DNA from: Desulfobacula sp.
GTDB lineage: Bacteria; Desulfobacterota; Desulfobacteria; Desulfobacterales; Desulfobacteraceae
Direction: 5' to 3'
NCBI RefSeq assembly: GCF_030611305.1
Contig: NZ_JAUWQB010000006.1
Coordinates: 1-64,000, forward strand
Length of the DNA stretch: 64,000 bases
Part shown: piece after piece, positions 33,368 through 60,112 of the stretch
How positions within the stretch are numbered: position 1 is the first letter of the stretch
Layout: every line of letters begins with the position of its first letter
Program-made: the position numbers and the translations under genes
The notes under the pieces: generated by a model
The model's input: the letters and a program-made list of their open reading frames with translations, nothing else
Told to the model about the DNA's origin: nothing
Database searches by the model: none

Positions 33368-35620
33368 ATGAATGGATTGCTAAAGCATCTCCCTCTTTTA
33401 AAAGATGTCCATCAGGAAACGATTGAGCTTGACCGGCCATTTGAACAGATAGCTGCATCGTTTGCCAGGGATGTCGGGACGGTGCTTTTATTATCCGGTT
33501 CAAGCCTTGACTGTTCCCGGTATCATATTCTTGCCGTAAAACCCTGGCTTGAGGTGTGCAGTAAACAGGATAATGTGTACATTAACTATCTGGGAAAAAA
33601 AAATCATGCCCGGCAGGATCCGTTTTCAGTCATTCAAGCTCTGTTAAACCGGTTTAAATTAAAGGACGCCTTTTTTGATCTTCCGGTTCATTCAGGCCTG
33701 TTTGGATATTTTTCCTATGATTTAAAAGATCGGATTGAAAAACTTCCCAGAACCTGCATGGATACCCGCCTGCCGGATCTATGCTTGTATGCGCCTTCCA
33801 TCATCCTTATTCAGGATAAAGAGACAGATCAGACCCGGCTTTGTATTCCTGTGCTGTCTCATGAAGCAAATTTTAAGAAGACAGACGAGATCATTCAAAA
33901 TAATAAACGTTTTTTCTTTGACAGAATCAAAAGGGACGTTAAAAGAAAACCCTTTTCCATAGACAATTCAGGGTTTAAATCAAGTTTTTCTAAACCTGAC
34001 TATATCGCTTCGGTAAATAAAATCATTGACTATTTAAGGGCTGGTGATATTTACCAGGCCAATCTTTCCCAACGGTTTGAAGCCGGGTTTTCAGGGGATT
34101 GCTATTCATTGTTCCTGGATTTGTTTGAACGAAATCCCGCTTCTTTTTTCAGTTATATCCATGCCGGAGACCATACAATCGTGTCCACTTCTCCTGAAAG
34201 ATTTATTAAGCAGGACGGCAGAACTGTTGAAACAAGACCCATAAAAGGTACCATTGCCCGTGGCAAAACAAAAGAACAGGACCATGAAAATGGACTATGT
34301 CTGACCCGGAGTATCAAAGATGATGCTGAATTGACCATGATCGTGGATCTGATGCGAAACGATCTTTCCCGGGTGACCCAACACGGGTCTGTCATTGTTA
34401 AAGAGCATAAGTGCCTTGAATCCTATGAGAATGTATTTCATCTGGTCTCCATTGTGGAAGGCAAACTTAAAGACGATAAAACGTCTGTTGACCTTTTAAA
34501 AGCTACATTTCCCGGGGGCTCCATCACCGGCTGCCCCAAGATCCGTTCCATGGAAGTTATTGATGAGCTTGAATCTGTGAAGCGACACATCTATACCGGT
34601 TCCATCGGATATATCAGTTTTCATGACACCATGGATCTGTCCATTGCCATCAGGACAGCCACCATTTTCAACAATACAGTCTTTTTTTCGGTGGGCGGCG
34701 GTATTGTGTATGATTCAGACCCTCAAGAGGAATACCAGGAAACCCTTGATAAAGGAAAAACATTAATGGAATCCCTGTCCGGCACTTTGAAAAAAGATAG
34801 TACCGGAAAGCTGAAAGCCTGGGTGGATGGGAAAATTATTGATCAGGATCAGGCCAGGGTATCAGCTACAAGCATGGGATTTCAATATGGGGCAGGCCTT
34901 TTTGAAACCATAAGGGTGGAAAAGGGAACCATATTTCATCTGGAAGATCATGTGTTGCGATTGAACAGGGCCTGGCAAAGTCTTTTTTTTGACACGCCGC
35001 CTGATATTACCTGGGAAGATGTGATTCGTCTTTTAATCAAGGAAAACAAGTTTCAGGACAGATTGCTTGCTGTTAAGATTCTCGCATCAAAGGATGATCG
35101 GGATAATGGCAGGAAAGCTTTTCTGGCTGCTTTTATAAGAGAGTATACCCACAGGCTTGAGATGCTGAATAAAAAAGGACTGGACCTTGTCACATACCCA
35201 CACACAAGGCAGACGCCTCTGGCAGATTATAAAACCCTGAATTACCTTTATTATGAACAGGCGGGCCGGTTTGCCAAAGCGCACGATGCAGATGAGGCCA
35301 TCATTTTGAACCCGGATCATACTGTTTCTGAAACCAATACCGCAAGTATAGTTGCCATAAAAGATAAAACCGTGATGGTCCCCGAATCCGATCACGTGCT
35401 GGACGGTGTGACGCTGAAATCTGTGTTGACGATTCTGTCGGACAGGGGGTATGATATCCAAAAAAAAAGGATACCCAAAGAGGTATTTTATTCATATCCC
35501 AATATTATGTTAACAAATGCGTTGATGGGGGCGGTTAAAGTGTTGACCATTGACAGAAAAAGCATAGAACACAGAAAAGGGATCTGTTCCATGATCAATG
35601 AGCAGCTTTTTAAAATGTGA
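33368..35620 (+). CDS. pabB: aminodeoxychorismate synthase component I / aminodeoxychorismate lyase fusion
   Basis: A 750-residue fusion. Residues 1-475 are PabB-like: a variable N-terminus, the chorismate-binding core with DIYQANLSQRF, RPIKGTIARG, DLMRNDLSRV and GGSITGCPKIRSMEVI. Residues from about 480 are a class IV PLP aminotransferase fold (PabC): WVDGKIIDQDQARVS, the PLP lysine in ADYKTLNYLYYEQ and SETNTASIVAI. Together they convert chorismate to p-aminobenzoate for folate, the cofactor used by GlyA and MetF in this window. The PabA glutaminase is not seen nearby. Confidence 0.92.
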   Translation: MNGLLKHLPLLKDVHQETIELDRPFEQIAASFARDVGTVLLLSGSSLDCSRYHILAVKPWLEVCSKQDNVYINYLGKKNHARQDPFSVIQALLNRFKLKDAFFDLPVHSGLFGYFSYDLKDRIEKLPRTCMDTRLPDLCLYAPSIILIQDKETDQTRLCIPVLSHEANFKKTDEIIQNNKRFFFDRIKRDVKRKPFSIDNSGFKSSFSKPDYIASVNKIIDYLRAGDIYQANLSQRFEAGFSGDCYSLFLDLFERNPASFFSYIHAGDHTIVSTSPERFIKQDGRTVETRPIKGTIARGKTKEQDHENGLCLTRSIKDDAELTMIVDLMRNDLSRVTQHGSVIVKEHKCLESYENVFHLVSIVEGKLKDDKTSVDLLKATFPGGSITGCPKIRSMEVIDELESVKRHIYTGSIGYISFHDTMDLSIAIRTATIFNNTVFFSVGGGIVYDSDPQEEYQETLDKGKTLMESLSGTLKKDSTGKLKAWVDGKIIDQDQARVSATSMGFQYGAGLFETIRVEKGTIFHLEDHVLRLNRAWQSLFFDTPPDITWEDVIRLLIKENKFQDRLLAVKILASKDDRDNGRKAFLAAFIREYTHRLEMLNKKGLDLVTYPHTRQTPLADYKTLNYLYYEQAGRFAKAHDADEAIILNPDHTVSETNTASIVAIKDKTVMVPESDHVLDGVTLKSVLTILSDRGYDIQKKRIPKEVFYSYPNIMLTNALMGAVKVLTIDRKSIEHRKGICSMINEQLFKM

Positions 35621-35691: not shown

Positions 35692-36393
35692 ATGAAAAAG
35701 AAAACGATCATCATAGCCATATTGTTTGTTCTGTTTTGCCTGCCACTCTTGGGCATGACGCAACCAAAAGTTTTAATTGACGCGCCTGTTTTTACTTTTG
35801 AACCTGTACCCGAAGGAGCCCATATTCCCCATGAATTTATCATTAAAAATTCAGGTGATACCCCTCTTACTATAAATAATGTTCTGCCTCCGTGAGGTTG
35901 TGACAAGCACTCCTTTGACAGGGAAATTCCCCCGGGCGGGGAAGGCAAAATAAAGGTAAGTTTTAAAACCAACGGTTACGGCGGAAAGACCATGAAAAAA
36001 GTTATTCTGGTCAAGACCGATGATCCCGAAAAAAGGAAATTCAACTTGGTTGTCACAGGGCCGGTTGAGAAAGTTGTGGAGATTAATCCTGTATCGGTCT
36101 ACCTGAAGGGAACCCCTGGAGAGTCCCTGGAATCCGTTGTGACCATTACTCCTTCTGAAAAATACAAATTTTCAATCCTGGGGATGGCACAAAAGATCAA
36201 TACAAAAATTAAAGCACAGCTTATGGAACCAAAAGGAGATGAGAAATCCTGGCAGATAAAGATTAAAAGCACATCAGATAAAGCAGATGACTTGTATGAT
36301 GTGCTGACCCTTAAAACAGACAGCCGATACAGGCCGACACTCACCATAAGGGTATATGCCATTTTTCTTAAAAAACAGGAATCAAAATCTTAA
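35692..36393 (+). CDS. periplasmic DUF1573 protein, candidate selenoprotein (in-frame TGA at 35893)
   Basis: The ORF track splits this gene at TGA 35893-35895, but both parts share one frame and join into a 233-residue DUF1573 protein. Residues 1-24 are a signal peptide. An Ig-like beta domain follows (FEPVPEGAHIPHEFIIKNSGDTPL). The TGA is codon 68 in the context VLPP-TGA-GCDKHSFDREIPPGGEGKI. DUF1573 proteins normally have CGC here, so TGA stands for the first Cys and the product would carry a U-G-C motif in the periplasm. The sequence after the TGA keeps the family pattern without decay. No clear bacterial SECIS hairpin could be drawn by eye. It lies between the pab fusion and a HAD phosphatase. 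Function is unknown, probably redox. A recent nonsense mutation is the alternative. Confidence 0.75.
35893..35895 (+). other. probable selenocysteine codon (TGA) in the DUF1573 gene
   Basis: The TGA replaces the first Cys of the family CGC motif and is followed by in-frame, well-conserved coding sequence for 165 residues. A fold of the 60 bases downstream is needed to judge the SECIS; candidate stems here are weak. Confidence 0.7.
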
Positions 36394-36423: not shown

Positions 36424-37056
36424 ATGGATATTTCAAAAATAAAAGCAGTGGTGTTTGACTGTGACGGTGTCATGTTTGACACGGCCGTGGCCAACAGAAA
36501 ATATTATGATGAAGTGTTGCAGACTTTTGGTAAGCCCGCGTTGAATGAAGAACAGTTTGTCAATGTTCATATGATGACGATAAAAGGGGCCATTGAGTAT
36601 CTTTTCCCGGAAATGGATGATCTTTCAAGTGTATATGACCGCCTTAAAAATATCGGGTATCATAAATTCATCAAGTATATGATCATGGAAAAAGATCTGA
36701 AAGAACTTCTCCTAAAATTGGAAGACAACGGCTATATCCGGGGAATCGGCACCAACCGGACCAATACCATGGAAAAGGTGTTGGAAGACTTTCACCTGGA
36801 AGACTATTTTGAAGTGGTGGTGACAGCAGCAAAAGTCAAAAACCCAAAGCCGGATCCGGAGCAATTGTTGTTAATAATGGGAAAATTTGATCTTCAACCG
36901 GATGAAATTCTTTTTATCGGGGATTCTGATTATGACCGGCAGGCAGCAGCCAGTGCAAAAGTAAGGTTTGTCGCATTTAAGAACTCTGAGCTGAAAGCAG
37001 ATTTTAATGTGGATTCAATGGATGAGATTGCCGAGGTTTTACAGATAAATGAATAA
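36424..37056 (+). CDS. HAD superfamily phosphatase (phosphoglycolate phosphatase-like)
   Basis: A 210-residue HAD hydrolase of subfamily IA. Motif I is FDCDGVMFDTA (nucleophile and acid/base Asp), motif II GIGTNRT, motif III Lys in KNPKPDPEQLL and motif IV FIGDSDYDRQAA. A helical cap is inserted after motif I. Such proteins act on phosphoglycolate, pyrophosphate or sugar phosphates. A link with pyrophosphate from ATP sulfurylase next door is tempting but unproven. Confidence 0.85.
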   Translation: MDISKIKAVVFDCDGVMFDTAVANRKYYDEVLQTFGKPALNEEQFVNVHMMTIKGAIEYLFPEMDDLSSVYDRLKNIGYHKFIKYMIMEKDLKELLLKLEDNGYIRGIGTNRTNTMEKVLEDFHLEDYFEVVVTAAKVKNPKPDPEQLLLIMGKFDLQPDEILFIGDSDYDRQAAASAKVRFVAFKNSELKADFNVDSMDEIAEVLQINE

Positions 37057-55229: not shown

Positions 55230-58200
55230 ATGACCCAAAATTCAACACCAAAGGAAGATCTTGCAGGTTCCGTCATGGTTCTTGGCGGCGGAATTGCGGG
55301 AATGCAGTCTGCAATAGATTTAGCCAACTCAGGCTACTATGTCTATCTGGTTGAAAAATCATATGCCATCGGCGGTATGATGGCAATATTGGACAAGACA
55401 TTCCCGACCAATGACTGTACCATGTGAGTGATCTCACCCAAACTGGTCGAGGTCGGCCGGCATCTGAATATTGAACTACTGACAAATACTCAGCTTATTG
55501 AACTTGACGGTGAAGAGGGAAATTTCACCGCAAGAGTAAAAGAAAATCCAAGATTTGTTGATCTCTTGAAATGTACATCATGCGGGGAATGCGCCAAGGT
55601 TTGTCCTGTGGAAGTACCCAGTGAACATAACATGGGGCTTGCCCAGCGGAAGGCCATTTTTAAGCAATACGAACAGGCCATACCGGGAGCGTACGGGATT
55701 TCCAAACGATCCACGGCTCCGTGCAAGGCCACTTGTCCGGCCCATGTGAGCATCCAGGGGTTTATTGCCCTGATGAACCAGGGAAAGCATGCCGAAGCCC
55801 TGAAATTGTTTAAGCAAGAACATCCCTTTCCCGGCTCCTGCGGTCGTGTCTGTCACCATCCTTGTGAATTAGAATGCACCAGGGGAGACGTTGATGAGCC
55901 TGTTGCCATCCAATACCTTCACAGATATCTGGCCCAGCTGGATCTTGACGGTGATGAAATTTTTATTCCTGAAGTTGCTGAAAAACGTGATGAAAAAGTG
56001 GCCATTGTGGGGTCTGGCCCTGCAGGACTGACCACAGCCTATTATATGGCTCAAAAGGGATATGGAGTTACCATATTTGAAAAACTGCCTGTCAAAGGCG
56101 GCATGATGACAGTGGGCATACCGGAGTACAGGCTGCCCAAAGCCGAGCTTGCAAAGGAAATTGAAGTGATTGAAAACCTGGGTGTTGAGATTCAAACCTC
56201 GGTTGAATTTGGCAAGGATGTTACCCTTCAAAGCCTTAAAGAAGACGGCTACAGCGCATTGTTTATGGCGACCGGTCTTCATGGCTCCCGCGGATTGGGC
56301 GTCAAGGGAGAAGATCTGGACGGGGTAATCAAAGGGGTTGACCTCCTGAGAGATGCAGCCCTTGGCAAAGCCGAAAAACTTAGCGGCAGGGTCATGGTAA
56401 TCGGTGGCGGTAATGTGGCGGTTGACGTTGCCCTCACAGCCAGGAGGCTGGGAGCCGATGATGTGACTATGGTCTGTCTTGAAAAACGGGATGAAATGCC
56501 TGCCTGGGATTATGAGATTGAAGAAGCCCTTGAAGAAAAGGTTAAAATTGTCAACAGCCTTGGGCCCTTAAGATTTATTGGTATAGACGGAAAGGTTGAT
56601 GAAATTGAATTTCAGGAATGTACATCTGTATTTGATGAAAACGGCAGATTTAATCCCCAGTATGATGACTGCAAATTAACGTCCTATGAAACAGACATTA
56701 TCATTGTGGCCATTGGTCAGATGGGAGAGCTTGAGTTTGCGGATAAGGAAGGCATTGCGTTAACCCCGCCCGGCGGGCTTGAGGCGGATCCTGTCACTTT
56801 GCAGACCCCCATCGACTGGGTGTTTGCAGGAGGTGATGCGTTTTACGGACCCAAATCGGTTGTGGATGCTATTGCCAGTGGAAAGACCGCGGCTGAGAGT
56901 ATGCACAGGTTTATCAATGGCGAAGATTTGAATGAAGGCCGGGAAAAGTCCTGGGACTTTGAAAAACCAGATATCCTTAATGTGCCCCGAATTGAACGGG
57001 CAAAACCTTCCAAAATAAGTGTGGATGAAAGAGAAGGCAATTTCAAGGAAGTGACCCTGGATCTTGCCAGAGAAGCCATTGAAAGAGAAGCGGCCCGTTG
57101 TCTTTCCTGCGGGATCTGTTCGGAATGCTATCAGTGTGTGGATGTCTGTCTTGCAGAGGCTATCGATCATGAACAGGTGGCACAGATAAAAGAATTGAAT
57201 GTGGGATCGGTTATTTTGACCACTGGTGCCACAACCTATGATCCGTCAGGGCTTGACGATATCTATATGTACAAGAGATCGCAAAATGTCATGACATCTA
57301 TTGAGTTTGAAAGAATTTTAAGTGCCGGCGGCCCGACACTGGGTCATCTTGTCAGACCTTCCGATGAAAAAGAACCTGAAAAGATTGCTTTTCTCCAATG
57401 TATCGGTTCACGGGATACCAATAAGTGTGGAAACGGGTATTGTTCGTCGGTCTGCTGTATGTATGCCATCAAAGACGGCGTGATTGCCAAAGAGCATTCG
57501 GAGGTAGAGCTGGATGTGGCCATATTTAATATGGACATGCGAACCTTTGGTAAGGATTATGAAAAGTATTATAACAGAGCCGCAGACGAAGAAGGCGTGC
57601 GTTTTATTAAATCAAGAATCCATTCTGTCATTGAAGAACCCGGAACCGATAACCTGATTCTCAACTATGCCGACGAAGAAGGCAAGATGTGCCAGGAAAT
57701 TTTTGACATGGTCATTCTCTCTGTGGGGCTTGTTATTCCAGAAGAGAGTGTGGAACTTGCCAAGCGGATTGATATTGATCTGGATAAGTATAATTTTGTA
57801 AAAACTAACGTTTTTAACCCTTTACAGACATCCCGGCCGGGAGTTTATGTATCAGGGTCTTTCCAGGGTCCCAAGGATATAGCTTCTTCCGTGACAGAGG
57901 CAAGCGGGGCAGCTGCGGCTGCCGGGATAAAACTCGCCGGGGCACGCCATACACAGACAAAAACGGTTGTCATGCCGGAAGAAAGAGATGTCCTGGGGGA
58001 AGAACCGAGAATAGGCGTATTTATTTGTAGATGCGGTATTAATATTGCCGGGGTAATTGATGTTGAGGCAGTGGAAGAATATACCAAGACCCTTCCCAAT
58101 GTGGTGTATACCGGTGAAAACCTGTTTACCTGTTCTCAGGATACACAGGTGAGTATTAAGGAACTCATTGATGAACATCAGCTCAACCGGGTTGTGGTGG

Positions 58201-59675
58201 CATCCTGTACCCCGAAAACCCATGAAGGCATCTTCATGGATACCTTAGAGGAGGCGGGGTTAAATAAATATCTTTTTGAAATGGCCAATATCAGGAATCA
58301 GGGTTCTTGGATGCATTTTCATGAACCTGAAAAAGCCACGCAAAAAGCCAAGGATCTGGTTCGAATGGCTGTGGCAAGGGTGGCAACCTTAGGGCCGCTC
58401 CATGATAAACGAATTTCAGTGATTGATAAGGCTCTGGTGATCGGCGGGGGTATTGCCGGCATGACTGCAGCCAAAGGGCTTGCTGATCAAGGCTATGAAG
58501 TTACCCTGGTTGAAAAGGAAAATATCCTTGGCGGCTTGGGGAACCGGCTTCATCACACCATTGAAGGAGATGATATAAAGGCCTATGTAAAAGATCTTGT
58601 TGGAGCGATTGAAAGCCATGACAAGATAGATGTCCTTAAACAATCATTGATTGTCGGATTCGGAGGGTATAAAGGCAATTTTAAAACCACTGTTCTTGTG
58701 GGCCCATCCATGGAAGAAAGAAAAATTGACCATGGTGCCATGATCGTGGCAACCGGTGCAACAGAATACCAGCCCAAAGAATTTCTCTATAATGAAAGCG
58801 ATGCCGTTGTCACCCAGATTGAACTCACCGACATGATTGAGGAGAAAAAGGCTGGGGATCTTGACCGGGTTGTCATGATTCAGTGCGTGGGATCAAGAAA
58901 TGAAGAAAATCCCAATTGTTCACGAATCTGCTGCCAGAGTGCCGTCAAGAACGCCATTTCCCTGAAAGAACAGAATGCAGATACAGATGTGTTTATTCTT
59001 TATCGGGACATGCGAATGTACTCCATGCTGGAAGAGTATTACACAAAAGCAAGAAATCTCGGGGTCATCTTTTCACGGTTTGATCCTGAAAATCAGCCCG
59101 AGGTGGCCAAGGGCGAAGACGGGAAAATGACAGTGACGTTTACCGATCATGTTCTGGGTCAGAAAATAGAAGCCAGTGCAGATCTTGTTGTATTGAGTGC
59201 AGGCGTCAAGGCGGCGGATACAGAGGAACTTTCAACCATCATTAAAACCAATAGAAATGCTGAAGGCTTTTTTATGGAAGCCCATGTGAAACTTCGACCG
59301 GTTGAAGCGCCCACGGAAGGAATTTTTATCTGCGGTACGGCACACGGGCCAAAGTTGATCTCTGAAACCATTGCCCAGGCCATGGCGGCAGCATCAAGGG
59401 CCACCACATTCATCTCTCAGCCATATCTGACCCTGTCATCCGTAACAGCTGAAGTAGATCAGGATCATTGTGCCTCCTGTCTTGTCTGTGTCAGATCCTG
59501 TCCCTATGATGTGCCGGTCATAAATGAAATGGGTGTCAGTTACATCGATCCTGCCCTTTGTCAGGGATGTGGTGTCTGTGCAGCTGAATGTCCTGCTAAA
59601 ACAATAAAATTAAACTGGTATGAAGATAATCAGTTGCTCAGCAAGGTGGAGTCTTTGCTGGAGGGGGTAATATAA
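55230..59675 (+). CDS. hdrA: giant HdrA-GltD-HdrA flavoprotein, candidate selenoprotein (in-frame TGA at 55425)
   Basis: The track splits the gene at TGA 55425-55427, but the frame continues, giving 1481 residues. Order: HdrA FAD start ([16 protein letters not shown], residue 12), then [25 protein letters not shown], where HdrA has Cys; a 4Fe-4S site ([14 protein letters not shown], about 115); a GltD-like NAD(P)H insert (160-590, [13 protein letters not shown] and [17 protein letters not shown]); Cys-rich [13 protein letters not shown] (about 620) and the rest of HdrA; a second full HdrA unit from about 925 ([25 protein letters not shown] at 1068, [12 protein letters not shown]); and a C-terminal ferredoxin domain with two 4Fe-4S motifs from 1411. 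It is the flavin electron hub of the mvhD-metV-metF module. Selenocysteine HdrA is known in methanogens and deltaproteobacteria. Confidence 0.9.
55425..55460 (+). promoter_or_regulatory. selenocysteine TGA and candidate bacterial SECIS in hdrA
   Basis: Downstream of TGA (55425-55427), CTGGTC (55443-55448) pairs with GGCCGG (55455-55460), including two G-U pairs, around the loop GAGGTC that begins 22 bases after the TGA. A G in the first two loop positions and this distance match bacterial SECIS rules. Confidence 0.6.
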
Positions 59676-60112
59676 TGAATGACTTTCAACCGGTGATATT
59701 GGCATTTTGCTGTAATTTCTGAGGGTATTCAGCTGCGGACCTGGCAGGTTCCATGAGGTTGAAGATCCCTTCAAATTTTAGAATTATTCGTGTTCCCTGT
59801 ACCGGAAAGGTAGATGTGATCCATATTCTGAGAGCCTTTGAAAAAGGGGCTGACGGCGTATATGTGGTCGGTTGTATGGAAGGGGATTGCCATTTCAACG
59901 AGGGAAATTTTCGGGCCAGAAAGCGCGTTGAGCAGGCCGCTAAAATTTTGGATCAGGTCGGCGTGGGGGGAGAACGGGTGAAAATGTTCAATCTTTCAGC
60001 TGGCGAAGGCCCGTTGTTTGCCCAGTTTTCCATTGAAATGGACAATATAATCAGGGAACTTGGGCCGTCTCCCATCAGGGTGGCAAAACAAAAAAAGAAA
60101 GACGCAGCTTAA
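59675..60112 (+). CDS. mvhD: MvhD/VhuD-type iron-sulfur protein, candidate selenoprotein (in-frame TGA at 59720)
   Basis: The track only shows the part from 59753. The true start is the ATG at 59675, overlapping the hdrA stop (TAATG), giving 145 residues. Codon 16 is TGA in the context ILAFCCNF-TGA-GYSAADLAGSMR. MvhD has FCCNWC there, so TGA replaces the last Cys of the 2Fe-2S ligand set, as in methanogen VhuD. Later cysteines GCMEGDCHF complete the family pattern. MvhD carries electrons between HdrA and its partner, here presumably MetV/MetF rather than a hydrogenase. Confidence 0.9.
59720..59752 (+). promoter_or_regulatory. selenocysteine TGA and candidate bacterial SECIS in mvhD
   Basis: After TGA (59720-59722), GGACC (59737-59741) pairs with GG-U-UCC (59747-59752, one bulged U) around the loop TGGCA, which starts 20 bases after the TGA and has G in its second position. 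This fits a bacterial SECIS. Confidence 0.6.

Follow-up and report, generated by a model that had tools for sequence, protein, structure and literature searches.

An interrupted DUF1573 gene of Desulfobacula that very probably encodes a selenoprotein of the described OS_HP2 family

The locus at positions 35692–36393 (forward strand) of a 64,000-nucleotide stretch of Desulfobacula sp. DNA, referred to here as the window, raises the question whether an in-frame TGA is a stop codon or a codon for selenocysteine (Sec), and, in the latter case, whether the protein represents a new selenoprotein family and what it might do. The open reading frame begins with ATG at 35692, contains a single in-frame TGA at 35893–35895 (residue 68), continues for 165 sense codons and ends with TAA at 36391–36393; with the TGA read as Sec the product comprises 233 residues. 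Codons for Gly and Cys directly follow the TGA, and alignment with homologues identifies residue 68 as the putative U of a U-G-C motif, with Cys70 (35899–35901) as its partner. The N-terminal region (35692–35763) is a predicted signal peptide, recognised by eye as a hydrophobic stretch without a lipobox and modelled by AlphaFold2 (AF2), with low confidence, as a helix of residues 4–15. A first Ig-like domain (35779–36045) is assigned from Pfam, AF2 and Foldseek, and a second, C-terminal all-beta domain (36046–36390) is kept in the orthologues and present in the AF2 model. Residues 30–117 match the DUF1573 domain PF07610 (E=2.6e-17; 63.1 bits, gathering cut-off 26.1 bits) as well as PF22544 (HYDIN/VesB/CFA65-like Ig), and thus the DUF1573 domain spans the TGA. 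The coordinates and the Pfam match bear out the first-pass annotation, which had described a signal-peptide frame interrupted by TGA 35893 and open for a further 165 codons with a DUF1573 pattern.

Frame length was rejected as evidence for readthrough, as 12 longer TGA-interrupted frames occur within the window. The length is not unusual, and the TGA is deemed more than chance because relatives keep both TGA and frame. When one genome per species was scanned, 15 related loci emerged, labelled mainly Desulfobacula, Desulfobacteraceae or Desulfobacterales, and in every one the same codon is a TGA followed by Gly-Cys. Aligned by codon, the window gene and nine orthologues contain the TGA in 10 of 10 sequences and no other internal stop, so that relatives ending at this TGA or carrying other stops, a possible refutation, are absent from this alignment. 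Differences behind the TGA are distributed over codon positions 1, 2 and 3 as 280/211/634, the pattern of a conserved protein; the downstream part of the gene is under purifying selection at the protein level.

The same picture is obtained at greater distances. Within the family, 73 genomes were covered, and almost all of the closest matches in them contain one TGA; class-wide, a DUF1573 match is present in 348 of 390 genomes, in many with exactly one internal TGA. All 20 one-TGA genes retrieved elsewhere in the class encode U-G-C, whereas the 14 readable genes without an internal stop encode C-G-C, and F36, H47, C/U68, G69 and C70 are invariant in 34 aligned sequences. Both Cys and TGA are represented at this column, and the proposal that the TGA replaces the first Cys of C-G-C is strongly supported. 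Two copies were considered as broken genes and rejected as such: in one (G197) the frame shift sits at an NN assembly gap, and in the other (G050) U-G-C is kept and the insertion lies further on. A second copy in genome G213 encodes C-S-C, a Cys version.

The genome itself (3.57 Mb, 97% complete) contains the complete Sec machinery, the absence of which would have spoken against the proposal: tRNA-Sec scores 76.5 bits (cut-off 47), and SelA (599.6 bits), SelB (349.2 bits) and SelD (369.7 bits) are all above their cut-offs. The SelD gene (contig C34, 24450–25373) carries one in-frame TGA itself, which is a known kind of SelD. The two further TGA genes reported 20 kb away are real as well. One encodes an HdrA-like fused flavoprotein (window 55230–59675, forward strand) with an in-frame TGA at 55425 (TNDCTM-U-VISPK); the other, adjoining it, is an MvhD/FlpD-like frame on the same strand with an in-frame TGA at 59720 (ILAFCCNF-U-GYSAADLAG), recognised by eye only. 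Both HdrA and MvhD/FlpD are known kinds of selenoprotein. On this sequence evidence, TGA 35893 almost certainly encodes Sec.

RNAalifold places two conserved hairpins behind the TGA. The first, a candidate SECIS element (UCCUU-UGAC-AGGGA, 35911–35924, forward strand), is weak in the window copy; its apical loop lies 20 nt from the TGA and has a G in second place, and this spacing and loop G match the usual bacterial SECIS rule. The second (UUCCCC-CGGGC-GGGGAA, 35927–35943, forward strand) includes one pair for which a single orthologue shows a compensatory change. An Rfam search of the locus returned nothing relevant, and folding of the whole stretch of the window copy against dinucleotide shuffles was uninformative (z 0.18); folding energies behind the codon were instead compared, by gene groups, with those of synonymous-codon shuffles, in which the protein sequence is unchanged. 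From +7 to +33, 21 Sec genes spread over the class have a mean z of -3.0, versus -0.2 for 14 Cys genes (p=1e-6). The window subfamily (16 rows) shows a mean z of -0.8 over the same stretch (p=0.04 versus Cys genes) and of -1.1 versus +0.3 in Cys genes over 48 nt (p=0.003), p-values that are optimistic because the rows are close relatives. For the window copy alone p is ~0.1 for each stretch, and the hairpins are not significant singly. A SECIS fold at the place where the first-pass annotation suggested looking for one is supported for the Sec genes as a group and, in comparison with Cys genes, for the subfamily as a group; in the single copy it is a weak candidate.

The family is not new. DUF1573 domain-containing proteins (pfam07610, UGC) are listed among known selenoprotein families in one review (PMC9312934) and likewise in a second (PMC13188914), contrary to the initial statement that no DUF1573 selenoprotein had been published. 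The first review credits the protein (its ref. 63) to Zhang and Gladyshev 2007 and a symbiont of Olavius algarvensis, a priority that is taken here from the two reviews and the NCBIfam name. The NCBIfam model NF041425, 'OS_HP2 family (seleno)protein', gives 128.2 bits for the window protein (116.3 bits in a six-frame search), and both copies in the genome, that in the window and a paralogue on contig C57, exceed its cut-off of 100. Given the listing in both reviews and the score above the cut-off of this curated model, the gene call is right and the claim of a new selenoprotein, for a family described in 2007, is wrong. The window gene very probably (roughly 0.93) codes for a selenoprotein that belongs to the DUF1573/OS_HP2 family described before. 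No function for DUF1573 was found in open-access papers that mention it.

With the Sec/Cys residue masked before tree building, the Sec/Cys label requires four changes on the tree, three of them forced by well-supported branches, versus about 12 when the labels are shuffled. A locus from another genus of the same family (L099) has Cys in the same kind of arrangement, pabBC – DUF1573 – HAD; set against the Sec of the window gene, this is a classic Sec/Cys exchange. In the window, the upstream neighbour is a fused PabB-PabC gene (chorismate-binding and class IV aminotransferase domains by Pfam; 33368–35620) and the downstream neighbour a HAD-family hydrolase gene (36424–37056), both on the forward strand and conserved beside the DUF1573 gene. 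HAD directly follows DUF1573 in all 14 window-type loci whose sequence extends past the gene; the same order recurs in 13 of 21 other Sec loci but in no more than 2 or 3 of 20 Cys loci, counts that are not unbiased rates because the loci were picked from the strongest class-wide DUF1573 matches. The spacing between the two genes is 0–119 bases in many loci (e.g. L073, L077, L082, L083 and L086), and the gene upstream of the pair varies, including PabBC, proteins of 810–820 residues and others.

The neighbours of the window copy (pabBC, HAD and, two genes on, Sat) say nothing of thiol chemistry. The second U-G-C DUF1573 gene of the genome (contig C57; L108, 7387–9963) adjoins genes for MauE, rhodanese and DsbD_TM (CcdA-type), with a divergent TauE gene. 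This cluster, which belongs to the paralogue and not to the window copy, offers the sole strong clue to function. In other families, a Sec locus (L071) and a Cys locus (L102) likewise have DUF1573 beside MauE-like and/or rhodanese-like genes, L071 having both kinds.

Structure prediction with AF2 on 14 orthologues yields an all-beta protein with two sandwich-like domains (mean pLDDT 87, pTM 0.71), in which residue 68 is located between strands 59–65 and 70–75. Foldseek matches the model best to HYDIN/ASH-type domains from the central apparatus of cilia and to the uncharacterised Porphyromonas protein 2qsv, with E-values of 5e-12 to 1e-8 and low TM-scores of 0.31–0.45 over the whole chain. A search of the PDB by sequence gave no clear relative, the best hit being again 2qsv (E 0.1).

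In the proposed mechanism, the ribosome would read TGA 35893 as Sec with the aid of SelB and tRNA-Sec, and the predicted signal peptide would direct the export of a product consisting of two Ig-like beta sandwiches. The initial remark that export of a Sec protein would be unusual carries little weight, because classic selenoproteins include the periplasmic Sec-containing formate dehydrogenases and [NiFeSe] hydrogenases. Residues U68 and C70, one Gly apart, may form a selenenylsulfide/selenol–thiol pair that would exchange with disulfides or persulfides in the periplasm, and CcdA/MauE-type membrane proteins perhaps feed this pair, as the neighbours of the C57 copy suggest. Sequence evidence supports the Sec codon, the machinery, the Cys/Sec exchange at one column and the predicted Ig-like fold; a possible role as periplasmic thiol oxidoreductase is suggested by the motif and some paralogue neighbours. 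A periplasmic selenol/thiol redox pair on an Ig-like (HYDIN/ASH-type) domain is the favoured reading, at about even odds.

Its main rival, appreciably less probable, is that U-G-C of the same selenoprotein, perhaps aided by the invariant His47, serves in the periplasm to bind a soft metal ion and not for redox exchange. U-x-C and an invariant His are present in 34 of 34 aligned members, and several of the selenoprotein families tabulated in one review are metal-related (PMC13188914). However, in a scan of 41 neighbourhoods no metal-transport or metal-resistance family ranks with the commonest neighbours, and the one informative cluster, that on C57, is related to thiols and sulfur. Slightly less plausible still is a role in sulfur or selenium handling, in which the protein would accept or deliver persulfide or selenide together with its rhodanese and TauE neighbours. 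The surroundings of the C57 copy and of L071 are consistent with such a role, as are the names of the relatives, Desulfobacula and Desulfobacterales. These are known sulfate reducers. Such neighbours occur, however, in only 2 of 21 Sec neighbourhoods, and Sat is the only one near the window copy.

The two readings that dispense with Sec are far less probable than either. A true stop, leaving a 67-residue peptide and a dead or separate downstream frame, would accord with TGA serving as a normal stop for other frames of the window, but is very improbable given the same TGA in all orthologues, the selection behind it and the domain that spans it. Genome-wide reassignment of TGA to Trp or another residue, for which no evidence was found, is the least probable of all: TGA terminates 11 of 39 long open reading frames in the window and is therefore not reassigned, the homologues carry Cys, not Trp, at the TGA column, and the genome has the complete Sec machinery.

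As the discovery of a new selenoprotein family the locus does not stand; it is a well-supported member of a known, uncharacterised family. The analysis adds context, in that the family is widespread in the class, with repeated Sec/Cys exchange, a conserved HAD partner and a paralogue in a thiol-redox cluster. The roughly four Sec/Cys changes on the tree and the conserved, mostly Sec, DUF1573–HAD pair are modest additions.

Compared with OS_HP2 (NF041425) of the Olavius algarvensis delta symbiont, as far as that protein is represented by the reviews and the NCBIfam model, the window gene is alike in domain, U-G-C motif, Sec/Cys exchange and kind of host; the only visible differences lie in the species and in how the genes are arranged (pabBC – DUF1573 – HAD). 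The Cys-type DUF1573 proteins (C-G-C) share the domain, the invariant residues and sometimes the locus (L099), but have Cys in place of Sec and show no folding behind the codon beyond synonymous shuffles. The HYDIN/ASH/SPD-2-type Ig domains (PF22544; PDB entries 9ijj, 7sqc and 2qsv) resemble the window protein in fold by Foldseek; those of cilia are structural domains. A broader and rather speculative proposal is that DUF1573/OS_HP2 proteins are periplasmic selenol/thiol carriers with an Ig fold, not a thioredoxin fold, which would take electrons from CcdA/MauE-type membrane proteins, and that several Sec and Cys paralogues are maintained in the class to serve different partners. Conceptually, such a carrier would resemble the N-terminal Ig-like domain of DsbD.
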